Below, in pieces: positions 3,755 through 37,537 of a stretch of DNA of 64,000 nt (positions are counted from its first letter, which is position 1; each line of letters starts with the position of its first letter). The position numbers and the translations under genes were made by a program. The notes under the pieces are model-generated. The model was not told the origin of the DNA, made no database searches, and saw nothing but the letters and a program-made list of their open reading frames with translations. The stretch comes from Colwellia sp. (GTDB lineage Bacteria > Pseudomonadota > Gammaproteobacteria > Enterobacterales > Alteromonadaceae): NCBI GenBank assembly GCA_013215655.1, contig JABSOX010000021.1:1-64000 (forward strand). The letters run 5' to 3'.

Positions 3755-3831
3755 AATTCGAAGGATTTTTTTATTAACTTACTCTAATGACTTAACAATA
3801 GTAAAATGCTGGTTATAACGGCATTTTTAGT

Positions 3832-3883
3832 GGATATGCTTGGTAGATATGTTTGGTAAATATGTTCAGTAAATATAGTACAG
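3832..3883 (+). repeat. Imperfect 13-bp tandem repeat over the sigma-factor start
   Basis: Four 13-base units (3832-3844, 3845-3857, 3858-3870, 3871-3883) share the pattern rrATATGyTTGGT; the fourth is the most divergent. The first three carry an ATG (3836, 3849, 3862). Because 13 is not a multiple of three, each ATG is in a different frame and only the one at 3862 continues into the sigma factor. The other two open 7-codon reading frames that stop within the array. Confidence 0.75.
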
Positions 3884-4476
3884 ACAAAAGACTCGTTAAA
3901 AAGCTCCTTAAAGGAGATGAGGCGAGTTTTGATATTTTTTATGAAGAATACTTTGATAAACTCTATCGATTTGTCTTATCTCGTGTTGATCATCAACATC
4001 ACATTGCTGAAGATATTGTGCAAGGTAGTTTATGTAAAGCAATCGACAAGCTACATACCTTTAGGGCGGAAGCTAGCTTGTTAACGTGGTTATGTACTTT
4101 TTGTCGTTATGAGCTGAGTGCATATTTTAAAGCGGACAACCGTCAACCTTCATTACTCGATGACTGCCCCGAAATCAGCGCTCAAATTGAATCACTGACC
4201 ATCGCGTTACAGCATCAACCAGAGAATAACCTTTTACAGCAAGAACTTAATAAAATAGTGCATTTAACTCTTGATAGCTTACCTGAACGTTATGCCCGAG
4301 TCGTTGAGCTTAAATATATTCAGGGTTGCTCAGTTAAAGAAATTGCGATCACCATGGATGTTACTGCAAAAGCGGTTGAATCCTTATTATCACGTGCTAG
4401 ACCGGTATTCGAAGATGTTTTTTTTAGTCTCAGCGGCGGTAGTAAGTTATTTAATGAACAACAGGTTAAAAGCTAA
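3862..4476 (+). CDS. ECF-type RNA polymerase sigma factor (FecI-like context)
   Basis: About 204 residues from ATG 3862; a TTG nine bases upstream is an alternative in-frame start. Region 2 lies near residues 20-90 (ASFDIFYEEYFDKLYRFVL then HIAEDIVQGSL and a TWLCTFCRYEL segment for -10 recognition). Region 4 lies near 135-190 (LDSLPERYARVVELKY then the helix-turn-helix CSVKEIAITMDVTAKAVES). There is no region 1 or 3, so it belongs to the extracytoplasmic-function group. Its stop overlaps the FecR start (TAATG), and a TonB receptor with signalling domain follows, the classic arrangement for surface signalling. It probably directs transcription of this uptake locus. Confidence 0.9.
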   Translation: MFSKYSTDKRLVKKLLKGDEASFDIFYEEYFDKLYRFVLSRVDHQHHIAEDIVQGSLCKAIDKLHTFRAEASLLTWLCTFCRYELSAYFKADNRQPSLLDDCPEISAQIESLTIALQHQPENNLLQQELNKIVHLTLDSLPERYARVVELKYIQGCSVKEIAITMDVTAKAVESLLSRARPVFEDVFFSLSGGSKLFNEQQVKS

Positions 4477-5474
4477 TGACTAATCAACAAAGTAAAGTGC
4501 GACCAGCGCAAGAACAAAAATCAAGTCAAGGAGATGCTTTACCTGAACTCTTACGCCATGTACAAGCGAGAGAAAACGCTCCAGAGCAAACGAAACAACG
4601 TATAAAACATCAGTTAAAAGTTCATTGGTGCGAAAAAAACAAACAACGTAATAAAGTTAAACCTTGGTTGATGTTTGGTTCGATGGCGACAGCAATGAGT
4701 TTAGTCATTGGTATTGTTTTTACGCAATTTACGATGACAACAAATGTCATGTTAACCACTGTCTATCTTGAAAATATACAAGGCTTAGTGAAAACCAGCG
4801 GCTTAAATATTAATAACCAAGAACTTGTCGCTGGCGCTATGGTCGAAACTTTTGCTGATGGCTATGCAACATTAACTTTGCAAACAGGCGGGAATTTAAG
4901 GCTTAATCACAATTCTCAATTAATTATCAATGAAAATAATGAGTTTACGCTTTCATACGGTACGGTTTATTTTGACTCAGGATTTGAGCAAAGTAAAAAA
5001 GTGCCAATTACACTGCATACCATTCATGGCAATATACAAGACATTGGAACGCAATTTGAAGTGAGTAGTCATCGCGATGGAATTCAAATAAGTGTACGTG
5101 AAGGACAGATAAATTTAGACAGTGGTGAAAGTATTAAGTCATTGTATGCAGGATATCAATTGGTCAGTGATAAAGCAGGGCTATTTCAGCAATACGAAAT
5201 TTTACCGACAAGCTCAAATTGGCAATGGGTAAATAATGCCGCACCTAAGTTTATGCTTGAAGGCAGAGATCTCTATCAATTTCTAATCTGGATCACCAGA
5301 GAGCATGGTATAACACTTGTTTTTAGAAATGACCATATTGAAAAGCTGAGTAAAGTGGTTACATTGCACGGTGATATTAATAACCTAACGCTAGAGCAAG
5401 CATTGTCTACGGTATTTTCTACGACTGAGTTAAAATATATGCTGACGCAAGATAAATTGGAAGTCTATCGATAA
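4476..5474 (+). CDS. FecR-type anti-sigma regulator with C-terminal STN-like domain
   Basis: 332 residues. Residues 1-60 are hydrophilic and cytoplasmic, with many Lys/Gln, and would bind the sigma factor. One membrane segment follows (about 65-88, WLMFGSMATAMSLVIGIVF). The periplasmic FecR domain (about 105-215) has the usual GNLRLNHNSQL and HGNIQDIGTQFEV strands. The last 75 residues (RDLYQFLIWITREHGITLVF to the end) look like an STN-type secretin/TonB short domain, similar to the C-terminal domain of Bacteroidetes-type FecR proteins. The start overlaps the sigma-factor stop, so translation is coupled. It should relay receptor occupancy across the inner membrane. Confidence 0.87.
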   Translation: MTNQQSKVRPAQEQKSSQGDALPELLRHVQARENAPEQTKQRIKHQLKVHWCEKNKQRNKVKPWLMFGSMATAMSLVIGIVFTQFTMTTNVMLTTVYLENIQGLVKTSGLNINNQELVAGAMVETFADGYATLTLQTGGNLRLNHNSQLIINENNEFTLSYGTVYFDSGFEQSKKVPITLHTIHGNIQDIGTQFEVSSHRDGIQISVREGQINLDSGESIKSLYAGYQLVSDKAGLFQQYEILPTSSNWQWVNNAAPKFMLEGRDLYQFLIWITREHGITLVFRNDHIEKLSKVVTLHGDINNLTLEQALSTVFSTTELKYMLTQDKLEVYR

Positions 5475-5482
5475 TACACTTT

Positions 5483-8137
5483 ATGCTGATACGTTTTTTT
5501 ACACGCTATAGCCTCGCCCTGACTCTGTTAGGGCTTTTGTGTATTATGAGCTTTTCAATTTCGGCAAAAACTAGCGAATCTAACGTCACTGAACTTAACG
5601 TTAGTAAATCTAAACTCACTGAACCTAAATATCATTATTCCGGCAAAACATTACTGGACGTTTTACAGCATTTAAATCAGCGCGATTATAAAATAATTTA
5701 CAGCAGTGAACAAATTCATCGTGGGATGAAAGTTAAAAACGAACCTGTATTGTTAAATGGATCATCCTTAGTTAAAGAGTTGCTCTTGCCATTTAACTTA
5801 ACCCTTAAACAAGGACTAAATAAGCGTTCTATTATTGTAGCTTTACCGGCAATAAAAAATGACTTCTCTCTTGGTATTACTATTTTTGATGAGCTCAGTA
5901 AACCAATGAATAACGAGGTAAGTCTTACCTTAATTAAGCAAAATAACGAAAGTAATAAAACCAATACAGCTAAGCTTTTGCGCAAAGTTATTACTACACA
6001 AACAGGACTTGCTAGCTATCATAATCTGAATAAAGGTAGTTATACTTTATCTATTTCAGCAATTGGATATTTAACAGAAATAATAAAACCTATCTTGTTT
6101 ACCACAACTAGCGATAAGAAAAAGAACATCAAAATTAATCTGGCGAGATTACCCATTGAAAAATTTGTTGTTTCAACTAGCCAATTCAATATTGATTATG
6201 CGCAAACTTCAGATAAAAAGTTTATGAGTCAGGATGATCTTGAGCAAATTTCACACCTTGCCAGTGACGTTAATCGAGCGGTTGCTAATATTCCGGGCGT
6301 TGCCGGTGGAGATGTTTCTGCCCGTATAAATATTCGTGGTGGCACAAGTCATGAAAATGTATTTTTATTGGATGGTATGCCTTTGTATGATCCCTTTCAT
6401 ATGAAAGAAGCAGGAGGACTATTTGGCATTGTCGACTCTTTTACTATTAGTCATGCACAAATCATCACGGGTGGCGCTCCAGTAGAGTTTGGTGATCATT
6501 TAAGCGGAGTGATTAACGTATCTTCGCAAGATTGGCAGCAAGAAACACCTTGGGCTGTAGGGATAAATTTCCTTGATTTGAAAGTTAAAGGCAGTGGTCA
6601 GTTTAAAGATAGTGAAAATAATTGGTTTTTTTCAGCACGAAAAGGTTTTTTAGGGGCTGTTAGTGCAACTTCGGATGTGGAGTTAGATAACTATAAACCT
6701 CTATACGGGGACGCTTTTGGTAAAGTTAATATCAACCTATCAGATAATACTTCATTGTCGTGGCACTCATTAATCACTCAAGATAGCCATTCTTGTATAG
6801 AAAAGTGCATCAACGGCAGTGATGGTACGTCAATAAGTTCATATAATTGGCTTACCTTAAAGAATAAATGGCTAGATAATTTATCGAGCTCATTTTTGTT
6901 AGGTTATGGTGACCTCGAAAACAATCGTAATGGTTATGATGCATACGATAATAATCAAGGGTTCTCCGCTATAGATGATCGACTTAATTGGTCTTTTATT
7001 GTTACCAAACAAAGTGTGCAGTATAAAGTATCTAGCAATCAAATTATAAAAGCGGGTATTGAAGCTAAATGGCAACAGGCTGAATATAAATATGTTGTTG
7101 CTTATCAAAAATATAACCCTTTTATTGCGCTGTCTCAGCAAGAGGGCACTTTTGAGCGAAAGAGTAGACTGAACATTAAGGGTAATACTTATGGAGCTTA
7201 CCTCTCAGATTTGTTTAAAATCAATCAGTCCTTTACTGCCGAAGTTGGATTGCGTTGGGATAAACAAACGTATACAGATGAGCAACAACTTAGCCCAAGA
7301 ATTAACCTTGATTATTTAACTGAAAATGGTAGCAATTATAAAATCTCTTGGGGAATATATCAGCAGGCACAAGGTATTCATCAATTATTTATTGAAGACG
7401 ATGAAAACTCTTTCCATTCGGCCCAACAAGTAAGGCAAATCAACTTTTCATATCAAGCACAATTGATCAAAGGATATGATTATAAAGTGAGTCTCTACCA
7501 TAAAAAATATGATGAGCCGCTACCTCGTTATGAAAATATTTTTGGCGGAGAGACCTTTATTTTCGAAAGTAGTGTTGATCGTACCTTAATTACTCCCCAA
7601 GAAGCCACAACAAAAGGGCTTGAAATTGTTTTACAAAATAGCCACAACAACAAATTTAATTGGTGGTTAGGTTATTCACTCAGTAAGGCTGAAGAACAAA
7701 TTAATGGCCATACTGTACCTAGACGGTGGCAGCAAAAGCATACAGCAAACTTTTCACTAAGTTATCAATTCTCTCCATCGTGTAATATTAACTTGTATGG
7801 TAATTATCATACCGGTTGGAAAAATACATCAATAGCTTTTAATCAACTCACCCCGAGGGAAGATAGTAATAAACCCTTTTTAAAATTTGGCAAACTTTAT
7901 CAAAATACTTTTTCAGATTATTTTAGAGTAGACTTTAGAGTGGGATGTGAAACACATTTAAATCATGGACGATTACGTTATTTTTTTGAAGCTATTAATG
8001 TTTTAAATAGAGACAATACTTCGGGTGTAGCAGATGCTGCAGAATTTCTCACTGCGACAAAGTTTCGTGGCTCAAATGCTGATGATGGCAATTATATTCC
8101 TTTTATCCCATCATTTGGTATTATTTGGCAGTTTTAA
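5483..8137 (+). CDS. TonB-dependent signalling receptor with STN domain
   Basis: 884 residues. After a signal peptide ending near SFSISAK there is an STN domain (about 50-120, TLLDVLQHLNQRDYKIIYS then VKELLLPFNLTLKQG) and a carboxypeptidase-regulatory-like beta-sandwich (about 128-225). The plug domain follows (from FVVSTSQFN; NIRGGTSHENVFLLDGMPL) and then a 22-strand barrel ending in aromatic Phe, as outer-membrane proteins do (GIIWQF). It starts 8 bp after the FecR gene. The STN domain would contact FecR in the periplasm. The plug closely resembles that of the receptor at 9362-11458. The ligand is unknown; no metal-binding hint is obvious. Confidence 0.92.
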   Translation: MLIRFFTRYSLALTLLGLLCIMSFSISAKTSESNVTELNVSKSKLTEPKYHYSGKTLLDVLQHLNQRDYKIIYSSEQIHRGMKVKNEPVLLNGSSLVKELLLPFNLTLKQGLNKRSIIVALPAIKNDFSLGITIFDELSKPMNNEVSLTLIKQNNESNKTNTAKLLRKVITTQTGLASYHNLNKGSYTLSISAIGYLTEIIKPILFTTTSDKKKNIKINLARLPIEKFVVSTSQFNIDYAQTSDKKFMSQDDLEQISHLASDVNRAVANIPGVAGGDVSARINIRGGTSHENVFLLDGMPLYDPFHMKEAGGLFGIVDSFTISHAQIITGGAPVEFGDHLSGVINVSSQDWQQETPWAVGINFLDLKVKGSGQFKDSENNWFFSARKGFLGAVSATSDVELDNYKPLYGDAFGKVNINLSDNTSLSWHSLITQDSHSCIEKCINGSDGTSISSYNWLTLKNKWLDNLSSSFLLGYGDLENNRNGYDAYDNNQGFSAIDDRLNWSFIVTKQSVQYKVSSNQIIKAGIEAKWQQAEYKYVVAYQKYNPFIALSQQEGTFERKSRLNIKGNTYGAYLSDLFKINQSFTAEVGLRWDKQTYTDEQQLSPRINLDYLTENGSNYKISWGIYQQAQGIHQLFIEDDENSFHSAQQVRQINFSYQAQLIKGYDYKVSLYHKKYDEPLPRYENIFGGETFIFESSVDRTLITPQEATTKGLEIVLQNSHNNKFNWWLGYSLSKAEEQINGHTVPRRWQQKHTANFSLSYQFSPSCNINLYGNYHTGWKNTSIAFNQLTPREDSNKPFLKFGKLYQNTFSDYFRVDFRVGCETHLNHGRLRYFFEAINVLNRDNTSGVADAAEFLTATKFRGSNADDGNYIPFIPSFGIIWQF

Positions 8138-8205
8138 GTTAGCTCTAAGTTAGCTCTAATTTATGTTTAAATTTGTTCTTTACCAAAGATTAAAGGAGTT
8201 ACCGC

Positions 8206-9327
8206 ATGACGTTTTTTAATAATGTCTTATCTTTAATATTTGTTGCTGTCTTATTTATCGCTTGCGGAGGCGGTTCGGGATCCTCAGGTACTGTTAATGA
8301 TGTTTCTTCACCCGCAGGAGATGTTAACTGGCAACCCATATCAACAGACTCATTTATTATCGGTGATGCCCAAAATGAAAGTTTTGATGTGCCTCTACTT
8401 ATTATCGCTTACAACAATGCTCGTGATGCTGATGGCTTAAAAAGTTTACTTGTTGTTAGAAATGAATCTTTAGTTGCTGAAGCATATTTTGAAAACACAC
8501 AGGTTAATGATCTATTACATGAACGCTCTGTTACTAAAACAATGATTGCGATGTTAATAGGACAAGCGATTGAAGACGGTTATATCATGGGTATTGAACA
8601 AACTATGGGTTCATTTTTTCAAGCTGATTTCCCTGAACTTTCTCAAAGTAAAAGAAACATTACCATTGCTCATTTATTAACGATGACCAGTGGCTTTCAA
8701 TGGGATGAAGGTCAAGTATCTGGTTATACTAATTGGGCCAATTCATCTGATCCACAAGGCTTTCTTCTTAATCGTGATTTATCGGCGGTAGTAGGAGAAC
8801 AATTCAATTATAACTCTGCTGCGGTGCATTTATTATCGGTAATTTTAACCAAAGCTACAGAAATGACCACGCTAGAATATGCAATGGAGAAATTATTCAC
8901 ACCATTGGGAATATCGCAAGTAGATTGGGAAATACTTAATGATGGCTATTATAACGGTGGTGCAGGTTTGGCTTTGCGTTCAGTCGATTTAGCCAAAATA
9001 GGTAGTTTGTTACTCAATGATGGGGTTTATCAGCAACAAATAATTTTACCAAGTGCTTGGGTTAAAAGTGCGAAAAATCATCAAGTAAGCTTAACTTCAG
9101 GAAGTAGTCCATTTGCTGTCGATGGTTATGGCTATTTGTGGTGGCTTGGGAAGGGTAATACACAAAGAATGCAAATGGCTTGGGGAGGGCAATTTATAGC
9201 GACCATCCCTGATAAAAATATGATTATTATTATCAATAGTGCATGGCAGGTTAGCGGCACTACCTCACGTGAGCAATATGCTGCGGCATTTAATGTCATG
9301 AATGACGTTATTACCGCAGCTAATTAA
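8206..9327 (+). CDS. Serine hydrolase lipoprotein (class C beta-lactamase/PBP-like fold)
   Basis: 373 residues. The N-terminus is a lipoprotein signal (LFIAC, Cys20) followed by a Gly/Ser linker. The catalytic SxxK motif is S108-V-T-K111, and the second motif is Y202-N-S. A WGGQF segment near residue 325 takes the place of the usual KTG/HTG box. This pattern marks the beta-lactamase-related family, which includes esterases, D-aminopeptidases and DD-peptidases; beta-lactamase activity should not be assumed. A Shine-Dalgarno (AAAGGAG) precedes ATG 8206. It lies 68 bp after the TonB receptor and is probably part of the same operon, so it may act on the imported ligand or on its carrier. Confidence 0.88.
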   Translation: MTFFNNVLSLIFVAVLFIACGGGSGSSGTVNDVSSPAGDVNWQPISTDSFIIGDAQNESFDVPLLIIAYNNARDADGLKSLLVVRNESLVAEAYFENTQVNDLLHERSVTKTMIAMLIGQAIEDGYIMGIEQTMGSFFQADFPELSQSKRNITIAHLLTMTSGFQWDEGQVSGYTNWANSSDPQGFLLNRDLSAVVGEQFNYNSAAVHLLSVILTKATEMTTLEYAMEKLFTPLGISQVDWEILNDGYYNGGAGLALRSVDLAKIGSLLLNDGVYQQQIILPSAWVKSAKNHQVSLTSGSSPFAVDGYGYLWWLGKGNTQRMQMAWGGQFIATIPDKNMIIIINSAWQVSGTTSREQYAAAFNVMNDVITAAN

Positions 9328-9361
9328 GTCCAAAACCAACTACGTTTTTAAATATTAGGAT

Positions 9362-11458
9362 CTAAAACTGCCACTTTATACCCAATGATGGAATAAGTGG
9401 TAACCAATGCCCTTTGATTTGTTTGACAGTAACCGTGCCATTATCACTTACATTATAATTACTGCCATCTACACAGCACTCATTTTGTGTATCCAATAAG
9501 TTACTCACTTCAACAAACCACGTTAAGGTGCTGTTATTGAGTTTTTGAATTTTGGATGCTCGAATATCAATACGACTATAATCTCCCAACTGCTCGTTAT
9601 TACGTTTGGCTAAATGCCTTGTTACTTGATAACTGCCATCTGGATTTTGCTCGGCGCTGCCAAATTCTCCAGTGGTTGGCCAACCCGAATGATAGGTATA
9701 AGCAGCGTGTAAATTCCAGCCATTGTGCAGTGCATAGTTTATTGACGAATTAACAGCATGACGTTGATCCCAACTACGAGGAAAGTCTTCACCATTAACC
9801 TTGTCATTGGCTTCTGAGTAGCTATAGCTGCCAGTCCAAGTGAGTTGTTCGTTTATTCTATGTTTGAAACTTAATTCAACCCCTTTGATGTCAGCACTTT
9901 GTGGAATAACGTGTACGCGGTCTGACTCCCCTTCAGGAAAAAAACTAAAGCGGTCAAAAACACTTTCATAACGTGAACGTGCGTTGGTGATTAATTTTTG
10001 ATACAACTCAGCTCTAAAATTTAAAGATGGCGTAAGTTGGCTATCAAAACCAATGATGCGATGTTCTGATTTTTGTGCTTTTCCAAATTCTGTAACACCG
10101 TCAGCAACCTGTAAACTTAGAATATCTTCGGCTTGATGGTAATAACCCCAGCTAAATCTCAACGTTGATAGTGGTGAAATATTGTATGCGATACTTGCTC
10201 TTGGGCTAACTTGATCATCATTAAAACCAAGGTACGTTTGTTTATCCCAGCGTAGTCCTAATTCAGCGACAATATTTTCTGAAAAACGTATTTTATCGTT
10301 AAGATAAACACTGTACTCAGCACCTTTAGTATCAATTTTAATTTCGCTTATTAAAGGTTCATTGGCGTGAAACCCGTCATATAACCAATTTTTAGATTTA
10401 TAATCGTATTCGGCATCTAATGACTTTAGGTCAAGTCCCCATTGCCATATTTGATCGTTTGAAAAACGGTATTTCCAGTCTTGTTTGAGTTCAATAAAAG
10501 TAAATTTTTTATAATCATCAACCAGTATATCAACTTCTTGAGGTTCAAAATTATCGCCGTTTCGGTCTTCATCAATAGCACCCGCAGAAACAATAATGGT
10601 AGAAGTTAATTTGTCATTCCACTGGGAGTGGAGACTTAACCATAAATAACTACTTGAGTACTTGCCGGAGATTTTTTTCTTTTCTTCAATAAAACCATTG
10701 GCATTCACAATTTGATCGTCGTATATCTCATCATCAAAAGCGTATAATAAACTTAGTGTAATTTCGTGTTCGTCGTTTAACTGATAACTCAACTTACCAT
10801 AAGCATCGGCATAAATAGGTTCGAATTTATTGGTCTCATCATCCATAGCTTTTAAGATCATATCGAGGTAACCGCGGCGAGCCGATACTAACCATGTTCC
10901 TTTACCATTAGCAAAACCACCTTGTGCGCCTGCGCGGGCATTGATAAAACTGGCACCAATACTGTATTGCGTTTCATCTAATGGTTCTAAGCTTTTTAAA
11001 TCCAGTACGCCGCTCATTTTATTACCAAATTGAGCTGAATAACCGCCGCTGGAAAAGTCCATTTGGCCAATGTTTTCAGTATCAATAATACTAAAGGCAC
11101 CGGAAAAACTTTTCATGTGAAAGGGGCGATAAAGTTGTTGCCCATCTAACAATACCAATACTTCATCGGCTTCACCGCCACGAATATTAAAGCTTGCCGA
11201 ATAATCACCTGCTGTTACGCCGGGTATTGATGGCATCATGCGAAAAACATCATCGGCCAAATGTGGCATTTGATCAATTTCTTCTTTTGATAAAAAATTG
11301 TTAACACCCGCAGAACTATCCATTAAGGTGTAGCGGCTACCACTTACCGAAATATGTTCTAAGTCGGTTTCTGCTGCAATTGAATAATTTTGAGTTGATA
11401 TGCTCGCCAATATACCAAGTGTTAATGTCGTTTTTTTCCAGTGTTGCCTATTTTTCAA
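9362..11458 (-). CDS. TonB-dependent receptor
   Basis: 698 residues. Signal peptide 1-29 (ends YSIAAE), plug domain about 30-160 (HISVSGSRYTL; NIRGGEADEVLVLLDGQQL; GGYSAQFGNKMSGVLDL) and a barrel ending LGIKWQF. Unlike the receptor at 5483 it has no STN or carboxypeptidase-like domain, so it should transport without signalling. The two plugs match along most of their length (for example HLADDVFR.MPSIPGV against HLASDVNRAVANIPGV, both with PFHMK), so they are paralogues that probably bind related ligands. It follows the di-haem lipoprotein gene by 89 bp on the same strand, probably in one operon, and converges on the serine-hydrolase gene. Confidence 0.92.
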   Translation of the reverse strand: MKNRQHWKKTTLTLGILASISTQNYSIAAETDLEHISVSGSRYTLMDSSAGVNNFLSKEEIDQMPHLADDVFRMMPSIPGVTAGDYSASFNIRGGEADEVLVLLDGQQLYRPFHMKSFSGAFSIIDTENIGQMDFSSGGYSAQFGNKMSGVLDLKSLEPLDETQYSIGASFINARAGAQGGFANGKGTWLVSARRGYLDMILKAMDDETNKFEPIYADAYGKLSYQLNDEHEITLSLLYAFDDEIYDDQIVNANGFIEEKKKISGKYSSSYLWLSLHSQWNDKLTSTIIVSAGAIDEDRNGDNFEPQEVDILVDDYKKFTFIELKQDWKYRFSNDQIWQWGLDLKSLDAEYDYKSKNWLYDGFHANEPLISEIKIDTKGAEYSVYLNDKIRFSENIVAELGLRWDKQTYLGFNDDQVSPRASIAYNISPLSTLRFSWGYYHQAEDILSLQVADGVTEFGKAQKSEHRIIGFDSQLTPSLNFRAELYQKLITNARSRYESVFDRFSFFPEGESDRVHVIPQSADIKGVELSFKHRINEQLTWTGSYSYSEANDKVNGEDFPRSWDQRHAVNSSINYALHNGWNLHAAYTYHSGWPTTGEFGSAEQNPDGSYQVTRHLAKRNNEQLGDYSRIDIRASKIQKLNNSTLTWFVEVSNLLDTQNECCVDGSNYNVSDNGTVTVKQIKGHWLPLIPSLGIKWQF

Positions 11459-11547
11459 AATAAGGTACCTCTAATACTGTTGAGGCGTTCATATAACTCT
11501 TGGCATGAACGCTGTTTCCATGTGTGTGGTTAAATACCACGTTGTTG

Positions 11548-14286
11548 TTATTGATTGGCTACTAGTGGATCGCTACCAGCGTCTCGTTCATCTTGGTTAA
11601 ATAAACCATCTTCATCATTATCAATGGCTATTCGTTGACCTGAACCGGGAGGCACACAACTAAACGTCATGTTTTGCTGATCAGCGGTGCCGAGCTCTAA
11701 CAGTTGCGTTGTAGTTAACTGCTCTTCTAAGCTATCGCTTTGCCATAGATCTGCGGTTTGATAAAATGCAGAACGTGGTGTGTCATCAATAACACCGTGA
11801 ACAATAAGATCACATTCTTGTCTTGGTATCGTGATTAATGATCTGGTTTTTAATAGTTCCAGTTTTGCTAATTGTGCACTTACATTGTCGCTGTTTATGG
11901 TTAGCTGTTGGCCTACAATGGGAGCTAGTTCACTACCAAAAGCAAACAGGAAATTCTCTAAATGTTGGCGTTTTTGTAGTGATTCAAGATCAAACACTTC
12001 AGCGGTAAAAAAGTGCGATAACATATCGACAGAGCCATCATGTAAATAGCCAAAACCTTTAATTTGCTGATCCATATTTTCACTTGGTCCACCTGGGATA
12101 AATCGTCCTGAATGACCAAACATGCCAACCTTTTGATATAAGTTGCGTAGGTGTGGTACTTTGAAATCTTCAATAATGGTAGGCCCTTCAACGCTCATGA
12201 GTCCAGCCGTACCAAATTGTCCATTTTCAGGGGATAATTTGTGACAAGTATTACATTGCTGATCTCCAACAACATCGTCTTCAAGGTAAATTCTTCTCCC
12301 TTCGGTTTGACTTATGGTTAAGCTATTGTCAAGTGCACGTATTGGGTTAGGTGGATAACTGATGCTTAAGGCAAAGTCGGTAAATTTTTGTATGTCATCA
12401 GCACTCAGTTCGTTCTCCAGTCCTAATAAACCAACAAAAGCAGGGTTAAACTCTTTAAAAGCGGCGCTTTCTAGCGATTCATCGGCTGCTTTATTCACTC
12501 CTGTGCGATCACCACGCCAATGCATCGGGCCATTGCCCGTTAAACCACGAAAACTTTGTGTCGTCATTGGTCCTTTTAACGAATGAAAACTAGGCTTTTT
12601 TTCACCAAAGTCTTCTTCTACATAGGTATTAGGACTATCTTTCATTTGACCCTCAGGATCTCCTAAATCCCACGCCAAGCCGTCAGTATCTCCAAATAAA
12701 TGACATGAACCACACGAGGCATCACCATGACCAGAAGTATTTGTTGCATCATATAAAAAAGGTCGGCATTGAGTGATGTGTATAGGCTCAGGGTTAAACA
12801 TTGTGAGGTGCTGAATTTCACTATTACTTGATAGATCTACTGTCGAAATACTGTTATCAAAACGCGTTAAGGCATACAAACGGCCATGCTTTTCATTGAT
12901 TATAACGTTGGTTGGTCCGCCACCTGATAAATGTATTTGTTGGTTTAGTGCCGGCGTAAAAGAATTTTTTTCTAATGCTTGAGTATCAAATATACCTATT
13001 TTAGATGAGCTAAAGGCGGCAACATAAAGTGTCTTTCCATCGTTACTAATATCCATACCTAATGGCATCGCTAAACTTAACTCTCGCTCGGCGTCATTGC
13101 CTTCTGGGAGGTTATAGTCAATGTGTTTGTTAAGGTGAATCGGACTAATTGTTGTTGCATCGTCATGTTCTTTTATGACCGTTATTCTACTTTCAACAAT
13201 ATGTGCACGTACTGTTGATGTATCTTCTGCCAATCCTTCAAAGCGGGTTAAATTAAATGCTTCTTGATTTGATACATACAAGGCGCCACTTTGGGGATTT
13301 ACTATCATATTAAATAGATGTGTACCCACTCCTGCAAAAGAGTTTGTTGCAACGGGGATATCTGCTGTGGCATCAATGGCAAAAACGTCTAAGTCGGGTA
13401 ACTCAAAACGTACTTTATCGTCAAAAATATTACCATGTTCATCAACCCAGTTTTGACCGTTAAATTGCACGATAAGACCAGTATCAGGAGCATCTATACC
13501 GTCACTTCCAGTAAACGGCGCTTGTTTAATTAAATCATCAGCTCCTATGGTGGTGGTTCTATTTCCTGATAAATAAGCGGCTGCATAAACAGTTTTTCCA
13601 TCAGGCGTTACTGCTAATGCTCTAGGTGTATCGGCAAATAAGGTGATAATTGTTGTTGGTAAGTACTCAAAAGTGTCAGCTGTTTTATTAGTATCAAAAA
13701 CCCAAATATCGGCGCGGCCAACTCCCGCCGTAGTTAACTGCGGATCATTGGGGTTATTTTGACCTCGGTGAGCTGTGGTGATAAACGCTTTATTATGATT
13801 TTCTCCAGCAAAAACAATATCTCGAGGTTCATCCCCAACTTGAATAGTGCTAATGACTCTCATTGGTTTGGTACTTATATCAATAATGCTAATACTGTCA
13901 GATAAGTGGTTAACTACCCAAGCGTGATTATTATGAATAGCTAAGGCAACAGGCTCTAAGCCAACATTTATTGAAGAGCTTAAAGATAAACTGCCATCAT
14001 CATTTATGGTAAATACTTCTAGGCTGTTATTAGGGGTATTCAAAGCAAAGAGTTGGCTACTATCATCGTTGATAGCTAACGCTCGTACTTGTCCGGATTC
14101 AAAATTTGTAAAACTAGCAAGGGCCTGTGGTGTGCTTGGTGTGCTTGGTGTATTGTCTACAGGTGTTGTTACTTCCCCTGAGGGTATGATTGACTCAACT
14201 TTTGTGGTGCTTTTTTCTGAATCGCCACACGAGGTGGTCAATATTGAAATTATCGCCGTGAGAATAATTAACTTTTTATTAGCCAT
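11548..14286 (-). CDS. Beta-propeller/di-haem cytochrome c (MauG/CCP-like) lipoprotein
   Basis: 912 residues. The lipobox is LTTSC (Cys20). Residues 60-500 carry repeated blades of a YVTN/YncE-type beta-propeller (SISIIDISTK, PRALAVTPDGKTVYAAAY, MDISNDGKTLYVAAF). The C-terminal half has two haem c motifs, C525-G-S-C-H529 and C678-N-T-C-H682, in the arrangement of bacterial di-haem cytochrome c peroxidases and MauG. It should be a periplasm-facing or surface lipoprotein that carries out peroxide-dependent oxidation or electron transfer, with the propeller binding a partner or substrate. The last residues (DNDEDGLFNQDERDAGSDP) resemble a calcium-binding EF-hand-like/thrombospondin-3 tail. It is the first gene of an operon with the TonB receptor. 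Confidence 0.88.
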   Translation of the reverse strand: MANKKLIILTAIISILTTSCGDSEKSTTKVESIIPSGEVTTPVDNTPSTPSTPQALASFTNFESGQVRALAINDDSSQLFALNTPNNSLEVFTINDDGSLSLSSSINVGLEPVALAIHNNHAWVVNHLSDSISIIDISTKPMRVISTIQVGDEPRDIVFAGENHNKAFITTAHRGQNNPNDPQLTTAGVGRADIWVFDTNKTADTFEYLPTTIITLFADTPRALAVTPDGKTVYAAAYLSGNRTTTIGADDLIKQAPFTGSDGIDAPDTGLIVQFNGQNWVDEHGNIFDDKVRFELPDLDVFAIDATADIPVATNSFAGVGTHLFNMIVNPQSGALYVSNQEAFNLTRFEGLAEDTSTVRAHIVESRITVIKEHDDATTISPIHLNKHIDYNLPEGNDAERELSLAMPLGMDISNDGKTLYVAAFSSSKIGIFDTQALEKNSFTPALNQQIHLSGGGPTNVIINEKHGRLYALTRFDNSISTVDLSSNSEIQHLTMFNPEPIHITQCRPFLYDATNTSGHGDASCGSCHLFGDTDGLAWDLGDPEGQMKDSPNTYVEEDFGEKKPSFHSLKGPMTTQSFRGLTGNGPMHWRGDRTGVNKAADESLESAAFKEFNPAFVGLLGLENELSADDIQKFTDFALSISYPPNPIRALDNSLTISQTEGRRIYLEDDVVGDQQCNTCHKLSPENGQFGTAGLMSVEGPTIIEDFKVPHLRNLYQKVGMFGHSGRFIPGGPSENMDQQIKGFGYLHDGSVDMLSHFFTAEVFDLESLQKRQHLENFLFAFGSELAPIVGQQLTINSDNVSAQLAKLELLKTRSLITIPRQECDLIVHGVIDDTPRSAFYQTADLWQSDSLEEQLTTTQLLELGTADQQNMTFSCVPPGSGQRIAIDNDEDGLFNQDERDAGSDPLVANQ

Positions 14287-14390
14287 ATTTCTTACTCTAG
14301 TCTTTGTTATTTCTTAGATAGAGGAAGTGAACGTTAATAATCCTTCGATAAAATTTAATTTATTATTGGTTATATAAATTTTTTTACTAA

Positions 14391-16764: not shown

Positions 16765-16797
16765 TGAGCTATAACTTAATCAATAATATGTATTTTG
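16765..16797 (+). repeat. Leader segment duplicated with the solute-binding gene (copy 1)
   Basis: TGAGCTATAACTTAAT (16765-16780) occurs again exactly at 17704-17719, and in both places a similar AT-rich stretch ending TATTTTG carries the TTG start (30 or 31 bases further on). The tandem duplication therefore included the promoter/leader and not only the coding region. Confidence 0.75.
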
Positions 16798-17559
16798 GAA
16801 TGTTCTTTGGCTATTTATCTCCGACTTGCTTTTATCTTACTCAACATTTGTTGTTCTCTTTGGGTCAAAGCTGAAATAATTAAAGTAGCAGGAATAGATT
16901 GGTGCCCGCAAATATGTATCAATGACGAAAAACCGGGCTACGTAGTTGAGCTTGTAAATGAGGTTTTTAAGGGAACTAAGTATTCTTTGGAAATAGATCA
17001 TTTTCCTTGGTCAAGAGCTATAAAAAATGTATTGCAAGGGAAGTACGACGCTCTACTTGCCCCTGCAAAAGCGGAAGCTCCAAATCTTATTTATCCTAAG
17101 CATGAAGTTGGTAAACAACGGATGTGCTTTTTTACTAAAAAGAGCTCTCAATGGTCATATTCTGGTCCCGAATCATTAGCTAATTTACAAATAGGTATTG
17201 CCGTCGATACGTCTATTGAAGAACTCAATGAATACGTAAAAAATAACTTAGCTCAATTCCAGTTCCAGCCTTATCATGAACGCTATGTTTTACAAAATGC
17301 TCGAAAGTTAGACAAAAAAAGAACAGATACCTTTTTGATGACCAAAAACACTACGTTGTATTCATTATCCTTGGCCGGTTTGGCTGATAGATACCGAGAG
17401 GCGGGTTGTGTTTCAAATACTTCAATATTCATGGCATTTACCCCTGAGCTTTCAAAAAAAAATAATGTTGAAGAAATGACTTTAGTTTTTGATAGAAGAA
17501 TGGCAGAAATATATAACACTTCATTTATTGATAAATTAATGCGACGGTATGGCCTGTAA
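16795..17559 (+). CDS. Periplasmic solute-binding protein, family 3-like (copy 1)
   Basis: 254 residues from TTG 16795; the frame has no earlier ATG. A signal peptide covers about residues 1-27 (LAFILLNICCSLWVKAE). The mature protein looks like an SBP_bac_3/amino-acid-binding fold: GYVVELVNEVFKGTKYSL, PWSRAIKNVLQGKYDAL, then a hinge and a second lobe with NLQIGIAVDTSIEEL. Proteins of this type without a linked permease are common in Colwellia/Shewanella-type genomes and may sense rather than transport. No ABC permease or ATPase is adjacent. Copy 2 lies 175 bp downstream. Conserved Cys residues (DWCPQIC, RMCFF, AGCVS) occur in both copies. Confidence 0.85.
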   Translation: MECSLAIYLRLAFILLNICCSLWVKAEIIKVAGIDWCPQICINDEKPGYVVELVNEVFKGTKYSLEIDHFPWSRAIKNVLQGKYDALLAPAKAEAPNLIYPKHEVGKQRMCFFTKKSSQWSYSGPESLANLQIGIAVDTSIEELNEYVKNNLAQFQFQPYHERYVLQNARKLDKKRTDTFLMTKNTTLYSLSLAGLADRYREAGCVSNTSIFMAFTPELSKKNNVEEMTLVFDRRMAEIYNTSFIDKLMRRYGL

Positions 17560-17703
17560 CCTGTTGATTGAAATTGTTATTTTGTAGCTGTTCACTTTGA
17601 ATTATTTACTTTGATATTTTACTTCAGGTCGATTGTATTAGCTTAACTTGAATAGGGTATGTAGGTTTAATTTAACAGCAATAGTTGGTTCAATGTAAAG
17701 ATC

Positions 17704-17737
17704 TGAGCTATAACTTAATTAAGTCATTTATATTTTG
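17704..17737 (+). repeat. Leader segment duplicated with the solute-binding gene (copy 2)
   Basis: Second copy of the leader described at 16765. The first 16 bases are identical; the following stretch up to TATTTTG has diverged slightly. Retention of the leader suggests that both genes are driven by the same kind of promoter. Confidence 0.75.
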
Positions 17738-18502
17738 AGTTCTACATTGGTAAAATATATTTATATCCCTTTTTTATTATTCAGTTTGTACCTTTCTCGC
17801 CCTGTTTGGGCCGAAACCATTAATATATCTGCAATAGATTGGTGTCCTCAAATTTGTGTTGGTGGCGATAAACCGGGTTATGTCGTTGAGCTGGTAAGAG
17901 AAGTCTTTAAGGGCACTAAATATTCGTTAAATATTGAGCATTATCCTTGGTCACGAGCAATTAAAAACGTTCTTCAAGGAAAGTATGACGCACTGTTATC
18001 TCCGGCAAAAGCGGAAGCACCTAACCTTATTTATCCGATGCATGAAGTAGGCAAACAACGGATGTGTTTTTTTACTAAAAAAACCTTTGATTGGAGATAT
18101 TCTGGTCCCGAATCATTAGCGAATCTACAAATAGGCATTGCCGTTGATACCTCGATTGAAGAGCTCAATGAATACGTAAAAAACAACCTAGCTCAATTCC
18201 AGTTTCAGCCTTATCATGAACGTTATGTCATTCAAAATGCCCACAAACTAGACAAGAAAAGAACAGATACCTTTCTATTTACTAAGAATACCACGTTGTA
18301 TGCTCTAGCAATGGCAGGTGAATCTGATAAATACCGTGAAGCGGGTTGTGTATCTGAAGCGTCAATTTATATGGCTTTTACACCTGCAAAATCAAAAGAA
18401 AAGGAGATAACAGAAATGATATCAATTTTTGACCAACGAATGCTTGAGGTAAACAAAACACCTTTTTTTGAAAAAATAATGCAAAAATATGGTCTAGAAT
18501 AG
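17735..18502 (+). CDS. Periplasmic solute-binding protein, family 3-like (copy 2)
   Basis: 255 residues from TTG 17735, with a signal peptide ending near RPVWAE. It is a tandem paralogue of the gene at 16795 and similar over its whole length. The stretch from SGPESLANLQIGIA through the NNLAQF and PYHERYV segments is identical in both proteins over about 43 residues, while the underlying DNA differs mainly at third positions. The N- and C-terminal parts differ more. It has the same fold and the same conserved cysteines, and no permease partner nearby. The two may bind related ligands or act as dose-increasing duplicates. Confidence 0.85.
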   Translation: MSSTLVKYIYIPFLLFSLYLSRPVWAETINISAIDWCPQICVGGDKPGYVVELVREVFKGTKYSLNIEHYPWSRAIKNVLQGKYDALLSPAKAEAPNLIYPMHEVGKQRMCFFTKKTFDWRYSGPESLANLQIGIAVDTSIEELNEYVKNNLAQFQFQPYHERYVIQNAHKLDKKRTDTFLFTKNTTLYALAMAGESDKYREAGCVSEASIYMAFTPAKSKEKEITEMISIFDQRMLEVNKTPFFEKIMQKYGLE

Positions 18503-35416: not shown

Positions 35417-37537
35417 ATGAACATGCGACTACTCACTTTTATTACCCTAATACTTATTTCGGGGAGCTACAGTACTTTTTGCTTTGCTGATGGGACGTTT
35501 ACCATTGAAGGTATGATAACGGCTGAGAATGGTCAGCCAATAGCCGATGCTAGTATTTCGATTAATGGTGATATAATACGTAACAACAGCAAAGGACATT
35601 TTTCTATTGATGTTCCGGTTGTGGATATTTATCAGCTAACATTCGAGAAAAAAGGTTTTTACAAAAGTGTGCATACCTATAGTCACTTTGAATTGAATTC
35701 AAATATTAACAATACAAAATTGACTGACGTTACTCTCGTTGCCAAAAAAGAGCATAGAGTGATGTTGGCATTTGGTGGTGACGTGATGATGGGACGTCGT
35801 TTTTACAAACCTTATTTTGATGATCCTATACTTATTCATCAAGATAATAAGCTTGCAAACAGTAAAGCTGTTGTACAATTTATCAAACCTTACATGAGCT
35901 TAGCAGACCATGCTGCGGTCAATTTAGAAACTCAAATATCTGAGGAACTTCCGGGCGAACGTGCTCCCAAATCCGTAACTTTTTATTCGCGTCCTGAACT
36001 ACTTGCAGCGTTAACTTGGGCGGGTATTGATTATGTAACGCTAGGAAATAATCATACTTTTGATTATATGACCGCAGGATTAACCTCAACCATGGCTTTG
36101 TTAAATAAAAGCGCTTTAGGCTTTTCAGGGGCCGGATTCAATGAACGTGAAGCGTTGTCTGCATATCATCAAAAAATTGGTAATACTGAATTTTCCATGC
36201 TCGGTTATGTGGGCTGGCAAGGGGGCTCAAATCCTACACAAACAGCTAATGACGAACATGGCGGCGCGGCTTACGGTTCAATGGATAATATGTTGAGTTC
36301 CATTCATCAAGAAGTGGCGCAAGATAAAGTAGTGATCGCGCAATATCATGGCAGTAAAGAGTACGCTAACAACCCTACAGGTGTTACAGAGCAACGGCTT
36401 AAATCATCACTTGATGCGGGGGCGACCTTAGCAATTGCTCATCATCCCCACGTTACCCAAGGTTTAGAACTATATAACGGTAAACTCATTGCTTACTCAA
36501 TGGGTAACTTTATTTTTGATCAAAACTTTACGGCAACTCAACACAGTTTTATTTTATATGTATGGCTTGATGGAGATAAATTTCATCGCGCTGAGATTGT
36601 TCCTCTTTATAATAAAGCCTATAAACCTACTCCAGCGACAGGCATGCATCGTTACACTGTAATGAAACGTTTAACGGAGCTCTCTAAACTACGCGGAACG
36701 TATATCCATCACTCTGCTGGGCATGGTGTTATTACAGCCGCTAATGTAGTAGCAAATAACGAGGAACAAGAGACTTTAATTTCATTTTCACAAAATGAGC
36801 AAGTAGAAAGTTTATATCAACTACCTTGGCAGTCCCCAATTACAAAAGTGTTATTAGATGACGTATCCTTAAAATATCGTTTGGGAACCAATTTGGTTAA
36901 CGGTAGCGACTTTGAAAGCTTCAATAACTTCAATGCGGCGGAACGTGGTTGGCACTTCGAAAAAGGGGCTATGGAGCTTAATTCATATGGGTTCAGTGGT
37001 CAGCACAGTCTTTCTTTAATACTAAACAATAAGCAAAAACAAATGTTTGGTATGCAAAGCTTTAGGCGAGTTTATAAAGCCAGTAACCCGATGACCATTA
37101 AAACAAAGCTAAAATCTAAAGACTTAGTGAAAGTATCTTTTTATTGGCAGGGTAGAAAAAAGCGCCAAAAACTCTTTGATGCCTTTAAAAATAGTGAAAA
37201 GCACTTAATAAAAACCATAGAGATTAATAATAAAGGCAACTGGCAAAACATTGAAGTAGATTTTAATTCACCTCGCATAGGCTATAAAAGTTATCGTGTT
37301 TTGGTTGAGTTTGAACTACTGAGCAACAATGAAAAGATGAAAAACAAAGGAATGAACAATAACGAAGACAAGAGTATGACAACAGGTAAGATTGATATTG
37401 ATGATTTTTCTGTCATTGAATGGCAAACGGCATTTAGTAACTCAATTACCCCACAACAATTTAATTTTGATGTCAGTCAAGCGTCTTTTATTGGTATTAA
37501 TCACCAAGGTAAACATTCGGCAGTACTAACGTACTAA
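35417..37537 (+). CDS. CapA-family metallophosphatase-like secreted protein
   Basis: 706 residues. The start ATG 35417 or 35423 is followed by a signal peptide (LLTFITLILISGSYSTFCFA). Residues 30-110 form a carboxypeptidase-regulatory-like sandwich (GQPIADASISING). Residues 115-420 are the CapA/PGA-synthesis metallophosphatase domain: FGGDVMMGRRF, NLETQIS, GNNHTFDYMTAG, HHPHVTQGLELY and SMGNFIFDQ. About 180 C-terminal residues look like a carbohydrate-binding sandwich. Members take part in poly-gamma-glutamate capsule export or in polysaccharide processing. No capsule synthesis genes (capB, capC) are near. An ArgR-like gene follows after 44 bp. Confidence 0.82.
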   Translation: MNMRLLTFITLILISGSYSTFCFADGTFTIEGMITAENGQPIADASISINGDIIRNNSKGHFSIDVPVVDIYQLTFEKKGFYKSVHTYSHFELNSNINNTKLTDVTLVAKKEHRVMLAFGGDVMMGRRFYKPYFDDPILIHQDNKLANSKAVVQFIKPYMSLADHAAVNLETQISEELPGERAPKSVTFYSRPELLAALTWAGIDYVTLGNNHTFDYMTAGLTSTMALLNKSALGFSGAGFNEREALSAYHQKIGNTEFSMLGYVGWQGGSNPTQTANDEHGGAAYGSMDNMLSSIHQEVAQDKVVIAQYHGSKEYANNPTGVTEQRLKSSLDAGATLAIAHHPHVTQGLELYNGKLIAYSMGNFIFDQNFTATQHSFILYVWLDGDKFHRAEIVPLYNKAYKPTPATGMHRYTVMKRLTELSKLRGTYIHHSAGHGVITAANVVANNEEQETLISFSQNEQVESLYQLPWQSPITKVLLDDVSLKYRLGTNLVNGSDFESFNNFNAAERGWHFEKGAMELNSYGFSGQHSLSLILNNKQKQMFGMQSFRRVYKASNPMTIKTKLKSKDLVKVSFYWQGRKKRQKLFDAFKNSEKHLIKTIEINNKGNWQNIEVDFNSPRIGYKSYRVLVEFELLSNNEKMKNKGMNNNEDKSMTTGKIDIDDFSVIEWQTAFSNSITPQQFNFDVSQASFIGINHQGKHSAVLTY

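Follow-up and report, generated by a model that had tools for sequence, protein, structure and literature searches.

A probable cell-surface signalling locus of Colwellia sp. with a predicted two-promoter sigma regulon, two related TonB-dependent receptors and a propeller/di-haem lipoprotein

The described systems closest to the locus reported here are cell-surface signalling (CSS) systems, such as FecI/FecR/FecA, and the methanobactin operons. In Escherichia coli, FecI serves the fecA promoter and sigma-70 transcribes fecIR; in known CSS systems, the transducing receptor also imports, and the separation of signalling from transport in TonB transducers is a noted difficulty (all according to the available part of PMC9249621). 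The available part of PMC3621798 describes MbnI, MbnR and MbnT, a receptor with an N-terminal extension, together with the MauG-like protein MbnH, as well as isolated MbnP/MbnH pairs near MbnT-like receptors with MbnI and MbnR homologues. Distant hydrazine synthase beta–gamma fusions are presented as highly prevalent in environmental bacteria in the accessible text of a 2025 paper (PMC12758564), and the function of HolH was given as not known in the accessible text of a 2011 paper (PMC3069032). Here, a 64,000-nucleotide stretch of Colwellia sp. contig JABSOX010000021.1 (the window) was analysed, in which genes of an extracytoplasmic function (ECF) sigma factor, a FecR-type anti-sigma factor and a TonB-dependent receptor (R1) converge with those of a propeller/di-haem lipoprotein and a second receptor (R2). 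Judging by sequence comparison, the whole is probably best explained as a switch for cell-surface signalling whose regulon comprises two promoters, a view that we hold with good confidence.

The open reading frame list and the Pfam scan gave six genes in two convergent groups, and all coordinates of an earlier sequence-only reading of this DNA hold. The five genes it had named (sigma factor, FecR, both receptors and the di-haem lipoprotein) were recovered, while a sixth, encoding a PF00144 hydrolase between the receptors, had been missed. The features of the locus are as follows:

3759..3787, forward strand: predicted sigma-dependent promoter P1 before the sigma gene (CGAAGGATT, 13 bases, ACTCTAA)
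3862..4476, forward strand: ECF sigma factor (Sigma70_r2 and r4_2 over cut-off; ATG at 3862, reading frame open from TTG at 3853)
4476..5474, forward strand: FecR-type anti-sigma factor (PF04773, 47.4 bits, over cut-off)
5483..8137, forward strand: TonB-dependent receptor R1, 884 aa, with an N-terminal signalling domain, plausibly the sensor (plug and barrel over cut-off)
5630..5848, forward strand: STN-type signalling domain of R1, residues 50–122 (predicted fold, matches to the PupB, FoxA, FpvA and FecA domains)
8206..9327, forward strand: PF00144 serine-hydrolase lipoprotein after R1 (77 bits against a cut-off of 27; lipobox)
9362..11458, reverse strand: TonB-dependent receptor R2, 698 aa, without a signalling domain, putative importer (plug and barrel over cut-off)
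11548..14286, reverse strand: propeller/di-haem lipoprotein, 912 aa (lipobox-like signal, recognised by eye; Lactonase propeller; two CXXCH motifs)
12241..12255, reverse strand: second haem c motif CNTCH, residues 678–682 (C678, C681 and H682 invariant in 10 of 10 aligned rows)
12700..12714, reverse strand: first haem c motif CGSCH, residues 525–529 (C525, C528 and H529 invariant in 10 of 10 aligned rows)
14318..14347, reverse strand: predicted sigma-dependent promoter P2 of the di-haem/R2 operon (CGAAGGATT, 14 bases, CCTCTAT)

The two promoters carry the argument. Upstream of the sigma genes of related loci, the consensus CGA[CC/AG]GATT-N13/14-C[G/C]TCTAA is matched at 12 or more of its 16 positions in 40 of 43 regions. 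Most of these 43 regions, among which the window is not counted, contain CGACCGATT or CGAAGGATT, followed after 13–14 bases by CGTCTAA or [AC]CTCTAA, at a near-constant position. A motif-free enumeration of k-mers in the sigma upstream regions recovered pairs such as ACCGA-N16-CGTC in 12 of 23 loci, where five shuffles gave 3 at most; these 23 regions, the window's included, are those of the 44 that could be anchored, and the 21 unanchored regions were left out. The promoter model was built from the 40 matching regions, with the window excluded and the three regions scoring below 12 of 16 left out. Its best sites over the window lie at 3759 on the forward strand (19.3) and at 14347 on the reverse strand (18.8). 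The third-best site, at 36883 on the reverse strand (CAAACGATA, 14 bases, CATCTAA), is weaker, with a score of 14.9.

The shared pattern, searched exactly, matches twice in the window and never in 100 shuffles. In the whole 5.56-Mb genome it matches only P1 and P2; a wider pattern finds the same two sites only, and the reversed controls of both patterns find none. No site as good as P1 and P2 turned up in 60 simulated windows, and none in the surroundings of 11 di-haem homologues that lack the switch (209,278 bases) or of five R2-type loci that have AraC-type regulators (108,046 bases). Between the −10 element of P2 and the ATG lie 31 bases. Since the pattern occurs genome-wide only before both operons, the sigma/FecR/R1 set and the di-haem/R2 set very probably form one unit, and the predicted co-regulation of the di-haem/R2 operon with the sigma operon is supported. 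The sequence-only reading had been staked on two points, control of the convergent operon by the sigma factor and the recurrence of the gene set in other genomes; the former is borne out at the level of promoter sequence, whereas the latter fails, as described below. A scan for sigma-70 promoters and terminators returned fewer matches than in shuffled sequences, and its result was not used.

The same layout can be noted in related sigma units. A promoter of this type precedes the sigma gene in 36 of 44 units, the window included. A second one, on the opposite strand and facing the receptor, is present in 22 of 40 units including the window (21 of the 39 others); among these 40, the reversed pattern gives no site either before the sigma gene or facing the receptor. 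The 40 are the units with at least 3 kb of sequence beyond the receptor; the distance limit was 3 kb, and 7 kb in the window with its longer convergent operon. Over 914,040 bases of examined loci, 88 promoter sites were found against 3 for the reversed pattern, and a stricter pattern gave 50 matches over 61 genomes against 5 in the control, with at least one match in 31 genomes. The products of genes behind such promoters include proteins with a GT4-type N-terminal domain, GT25, phosphoethanolamine transferases resembling EptA, and several secreted proteins that no Pfam model matches. The PF00144 hydrolase gene that follows the receptor in L052 has a site of its own, at the lowest accepted score. 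Loci L117 (on the L052 contig), L078 (the same as L046), L080 (the same as L049) and L057 (cut off) were dropped from the k-mer, upstream, convergent-promoter and lost-position counts, and L117, L057, L080 and L222 from the listing of genes behind promoters.

Two arrangements among these targets are worth recording. In L203, L205 and L207, EptA-like transferases (confirmed by Pfam in L205 only) stand back to back with multi-cysteine secreted proteins, each behind such a promoter. In L121, L144–L146, L148 and L150, a secreted family without a Pfam match (motif ELNNTDGDLG) heads the convergent operon behind the same promoter type. Residue 176 of the sigma factor, in region 4, follows the form of the −35 element: glutamate is paired with AG in 9 of 9 loci and glutamine with CC in 31 of 31, and the window combines Glu176 with the AG form.

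The sequence-only reading had proposed that the sigma factor, FecR and an STN-type receptor make up a signalling unit. For the first two, Pfam bears this out; the gene of FecR adjoins that of the sigma factor, and its membrane helix was read from the sequence only. For R1, the support comes from the predicted domain fold. The Pfam STN model matched none of 13 receptors at E 0.01 and gave three weak matches among 37 isolated signalling domains, that of R1 not being among them; a signalling-domain profile run against PDB sequences also yielded nothing useful. The fold of residues 50–122 of R1, modelled with 36 relatives, was predicted with a pLDDT (predicted local distance difference test score) of 93. 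The top Foldseek match is FpvA with a weak E of 0.012, and no match reaches 0.001. After realignment, chain B of the PupR–PupB complex (taken as PupB), FoxA and FpvA gave Z of 8.1–9.1, FecA and PupA 7.1–7.6, and one nuclear magnetic resonance model of PupB 6.0. Other structures match the R1 domain with Z of 7–9 as well, namely a methylesterase domain, an anti-sigma factor of Parabacteroides and the N0 domains of secretins; the STN superfamily includes secretins. By its predicted structure, the N-terminus of R1 folds like the signalling domains of PupB, FoxA and FpvA. R2 has no region corresponding to it.

R1 and R2 are 32% identical over 675 aa (E 2e-120). They had been described as sharing a closely similar plug, with STN missing from the second; they are indeed related and R2 does lack the signalling region, although the likeness extends through the barrel. 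The 5.56-Mb genome holds no third member of their subfamily, the next match having E 2.2e-6. A phylogeny of the plugs had been suggested, and the receptor tree (35 of 57 receptors, 9 of 10 outgroup loci) places the subfamily in a single clade apart from the next TonB receptors (Shimodaira–Hasegawa-like approximate likelihood-ratio support 100; 35 rows against 9 outgroup rows), with R1 and R2 on separate branches. A class-wide search separates the subfamily from the next TonB receptors by a gap in E from 3e-205 to 9e-69. R2 groups with Colwellia in a clade that contains six receptors, all signalling-free, from Colwellia and Pseudoalteromonas (support 100), whereas R1 forms a long separate branch of unsure placement; a recent local duplication was therefore rejected. 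R1 has lost 13 of 72 near-invariant positions, that is, positions common to at least 95% of the other receptors. This is the largest loss among the 57 receptors; two others have lost 12 and 11, and R2 has lost 3. By this count, R1 is the most divergent of the 57. Because R1 has lost the most conserved positions and it alone carries the signalling domain, it is plausible that R1 senses and R2 imports.

The di-haem protein had been called a MauG-like di-haem/beta-propeller lipoprotein. The propeller, the two CXXCH motifs and the lipobox-like signal stand, whereas the MauG label is weak, CCP_MauG (PF03150) reaching 17.8 bits against a gathering cut-off of 25.6. The N-terminal propeller matches the Lactonase model of Pfam with 41.7 bits (cut-off 21.7), and the invariant haem motifs lie in the C-terminal part. 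By sequence, an archaeal S-layer propeller is the best match of the propeller and hydrazine synthase beta the next, and the part with the first haem motif weakly matches hydrazine synthase gamma. By fold, hydrazine synthase beta comes first (PDB 5c2v_B, E 2.7e-14); only the propeller entered this comparison, because the haem region is poorly modelled (mean pLDDT over the full-length model, 56). The hydrazine synthase beta/gamma fusion model NF052342 gave 44.2 bits and its curated cut-off of 1250 was not reached. In its sequence matches and predicted fold, the protein resembles such a fusion. The MbnP and MbnH models (TIGR04039, TIGR04052) are absent from all 9 NCBIfam hits of the protein at E 0.01, and likewise from the hits of the six locus proteins at this threshold (for the sigma factor, among the best 25 of 84 hits).

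A homologue (L157:14938-17979, annotated as a 'YncE family protein') is encoded on the thiomarinol plasmid pTML1, with 38% identity over 92% of the query. It is the last hol gene, and from its position in the hol row we take it to be HolH. Two further homologues, those of G061 and G095, directly follow very large reading frames that are similar to those of non-ribosomal peptide synthetases (NRPS) by appearance only; the stretches L033:1-11197, L034 and L158–L160, from two genomes of one genus, show di-haem homologues immediately behind such NRPS-like frames. In L033, the homologue stands before an ABC transporter that Pfam places in the MacB type. The occurrence of homologues in the hol row and behind NRPS-like frames suggests that these di-haem proteins may come into contact with peptide natural products. 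The homologue of L043:8715-11771 is split into two frames by a stop codon and is possibly a broken gene.

The gene of the serine hydrolase follows R1 after 68 bases, and its end lies 34 bases from the end of the R2 gene; the di-haem gene is the first of the reverse operon, 89 bases before R2. The best solved relative of the hydrolase is Lsa45, followed by NylB-like hydrolases; the protein carries what we take to be a lipobox and an SxxK motif (SVTK), both read from the sequence. Receptor genes with a PF00144 hydrolase gene immediately after them occur in the window, in L081 and in L052, which shares its contig with L117; in L047 (and, by clustering, in L079) the hydrolase forms part of a fused protein. 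No statistical claim is made on this link. Further along the window, at 16795–18502, lies a tandem pair of very similar solute-binding proteins (PF00497).

The components are unevenly distributed. The R2 query found its subfamily in 1 of 147 genomes of the organism's own family and in 4 of 395 in a larger sample, for which scoring was confined to the top two candidates of each genome; FecR was found in 1 of 147 and the di-haem protein in 12 of 147. A scan of named genomes contributed 14 subfamily loci, and in the class-wide search 4 of 369 genomes lie above the clear gap in E. In the family of G657, 1 of 23 genomes has the receptor; in f162, the family to which G560 belongs, 67 of 107 have it at E 1e-120, with up to three copies each. 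f162 is probably Woeseiaceae, since the Woeseiaceae-labelled locus L051 falls in a clade with f162 loci (support 100). Woeseiaceae are common in marine sediment. Among the open-licence papers listed for TonB receptors, sigma factors and FecR of Woeseia and Woeseiaceae, no description of this unit was found. A plasmid origin was considered and rejected: a plasmid collection contained neither a nucleotide match of the locus nor a match of R2.

The expected co-occurrence of the five genes in other genomes was not found. In the stretches around the 11 other di-haem loci, no subfamily receptor, sigma factor or FecR is present; in L038, a 1002-aa protein about 5 kb from the di-haem gene weakly matches R2 (35 bits, 32% identity over 117 aa), and L043 carries, about 4 kb from its di-haem gene, a protein of PF00144 type related to the window hydrolase. 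Conversely, 59 other receptor neighbourhoods, of which three are duplicates, were inspected over three genes on either side, and the di-haem protein is absent from all of them. The R2-type receptors of Colwellia and Pseudoalteromonas (L046, L047, L048, L049 and L079, from five different genomes) have an AraC-type regulator upstream in 5 of 5 cases and an amidohydrolase lipoprotein in 3 of 5; for three regulators and two amidohydrolases the assignment comes from Pfam.

Several observations weigh against the proposed regulon and against a common task of its products. The full gene set was found in no other genome examined, and a joint function of receptor, hydrolase and di-haem protein is without comparative support. 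Across forty Markov-simulated windows, the top scores go up to 23.6, with a mean of 14.1, against 19.3 for P1, so that a lone site of about 19 is no proof. The 9-base −35 string alone occurs twice in the window, and two or more times in 6 of 100 shuffles; the −10 element of P2 departs from the consensus at its last base, and 18 of the 40 sigma units have no convergent site. The agreement between Glu176 and the promoter type needs only one change on the tree, and twelve other sigma columns split the AG and CC groups as well as residue 176 does; the fit is therefore consistent with recognition and is no independent proof of it. If the two operons were independent and had become neighbours by chance, with the promoter at 14347 coincidental, the lack of the full set elsewhere and the AraC-type regulators before the other R2-clade receptors would fit. 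However, both matches of the pattern in 5.56 Mb precede these very operons and no site is found around the 11 other di-haem and 5 R2-type loci, which makes coincidence very unlikely.

A copper- or methanobactin-type system, with the sigma factor, FecR, receptor and di-haem protein as MbnI, MbnR, MbnT and MbnH, would agree with the published association of these proteins and with the MbnP/MbnH pairs near MbnT-like receptors (in the available part of PMC3621798). Membership was rejected, as none of the six proteins gave a match to the MbnP/MbnH models within the scope stated above; the di-haem protein, a fusion with a propeller, comes closer to hydrazine synthase beta/gamma, and we regard this explanation as highly improbable. 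Shared control of separate jobs is a possible though doubtful alternative: R1 would import its own compound, and R2 with the di-haem protein would handle another substrate or detoxify the compound of R1. It agrees with transducers that also import (PMC9249621, available part), and with the convergent targets of related units, which are other envelope genes (GT4-type N-terminal and unknown-family secreted proteins); the homologue in an antibiotic cluster would fit protection too. It is less easily reconciled with R1 and R2 being the sole two subfamily members in the genome and with the many conserved positions lost in R1. That R1 and R2 divide the sensing and import of one molecule, R1 as a fast-evolving sensor and R2 as the transporter, within a private two-promoter sigma regulon whose hydrolase and di-haem protein process the molecule, perhaps a foreign peptide natural product from HolH-bearing clusters, is likewise put forward only tentatively.

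The signalling switch with its two-promoter regulon may work as follows. By analogy with the known CSS mechanism, R1 would bind an extracellular ligand, and its periplasmic domain would signal through FecR to the ECF sigma factor. Going by the promoter sequences, the sigma factor would then transcribe its own operon (sigma factor, FecR, R1 and probably the serine-hydrolase lipoprotein) and the convergent di-haem lipoprotein/R2 operon. R2 would most likely import the ligand of R1 or a processed form of it, so that the receptors may share one processed ligand; the two lipoproteins would likely modify the ligand or its carriers, hydrolytically and oxidatively. As the switch is rare in its own family, it was probably acquired horizontally and then wired to the local R2/di-haem operon.

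The regulatory half of the earlier idea is thereby strengthened to a precise prediction, whereas a recurring five-gene system is unsupported. Two predicted promoters and one sigma factor in one genome offer a sharp and cheap test. If sensor and importer are indeed separate receptors, R1 and R2 would be a natural pair for separating signalling from transport. The same promoter type defines a signalling family found in 67 of the 107 genomes of f162, a gammaproteobacterial family, and its targets can now be listed. The locus also provides a handle on HolH-like proteins.

It had been stated that no described system has exactly this set. The methanobactin operons (mbnIRT with mbnPH) do share much of it, namely a sigma factor, FecR, an extended receptor and a two-haem protein close together; the di-haem protein here falls outside the Mbn models and has a propeller, and a second receptor such as R2 is not mentioned in the available part of PMC3621798. 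Hydrazine synthase beta/gamma-like fusions have in common with the di-haem protein the N-terminal propeller, with beta as the best solved fold, and two C-terminal CXXCH motifs; they differ in that the cut-off of the fusion model is missed here and the S-layer propeller scores higher by sequence. HolH of pTML1 belongs to a biosynthetic cluster, with receptors of the R1/R2 type absent from the 18 kb examined. FecI/FecR/FecA, like PupI/R/B and FpvI/R/A, share with the locus the ECF sigma factor, the anti-sigma factor with a FecR domain and the receptor with a signalling domain of the PupB/FoxA/FpvA fold. Unlike in E. coli fec, a putative sigma-type promoter precedes the sigma gene itself, and a second lies before a convergent operon with a second, signalling-free receptor; signalling of the FecIRA type is TonB-dependent and triggered by an iron carrier, and no test here implicates iron for the Colwellia locus. 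The units of f162 have the same three genes in the same order, the same promoter type and often the convergent promoter, and differ in having one receptor per unit and other envelope or secreted proteins as targets.

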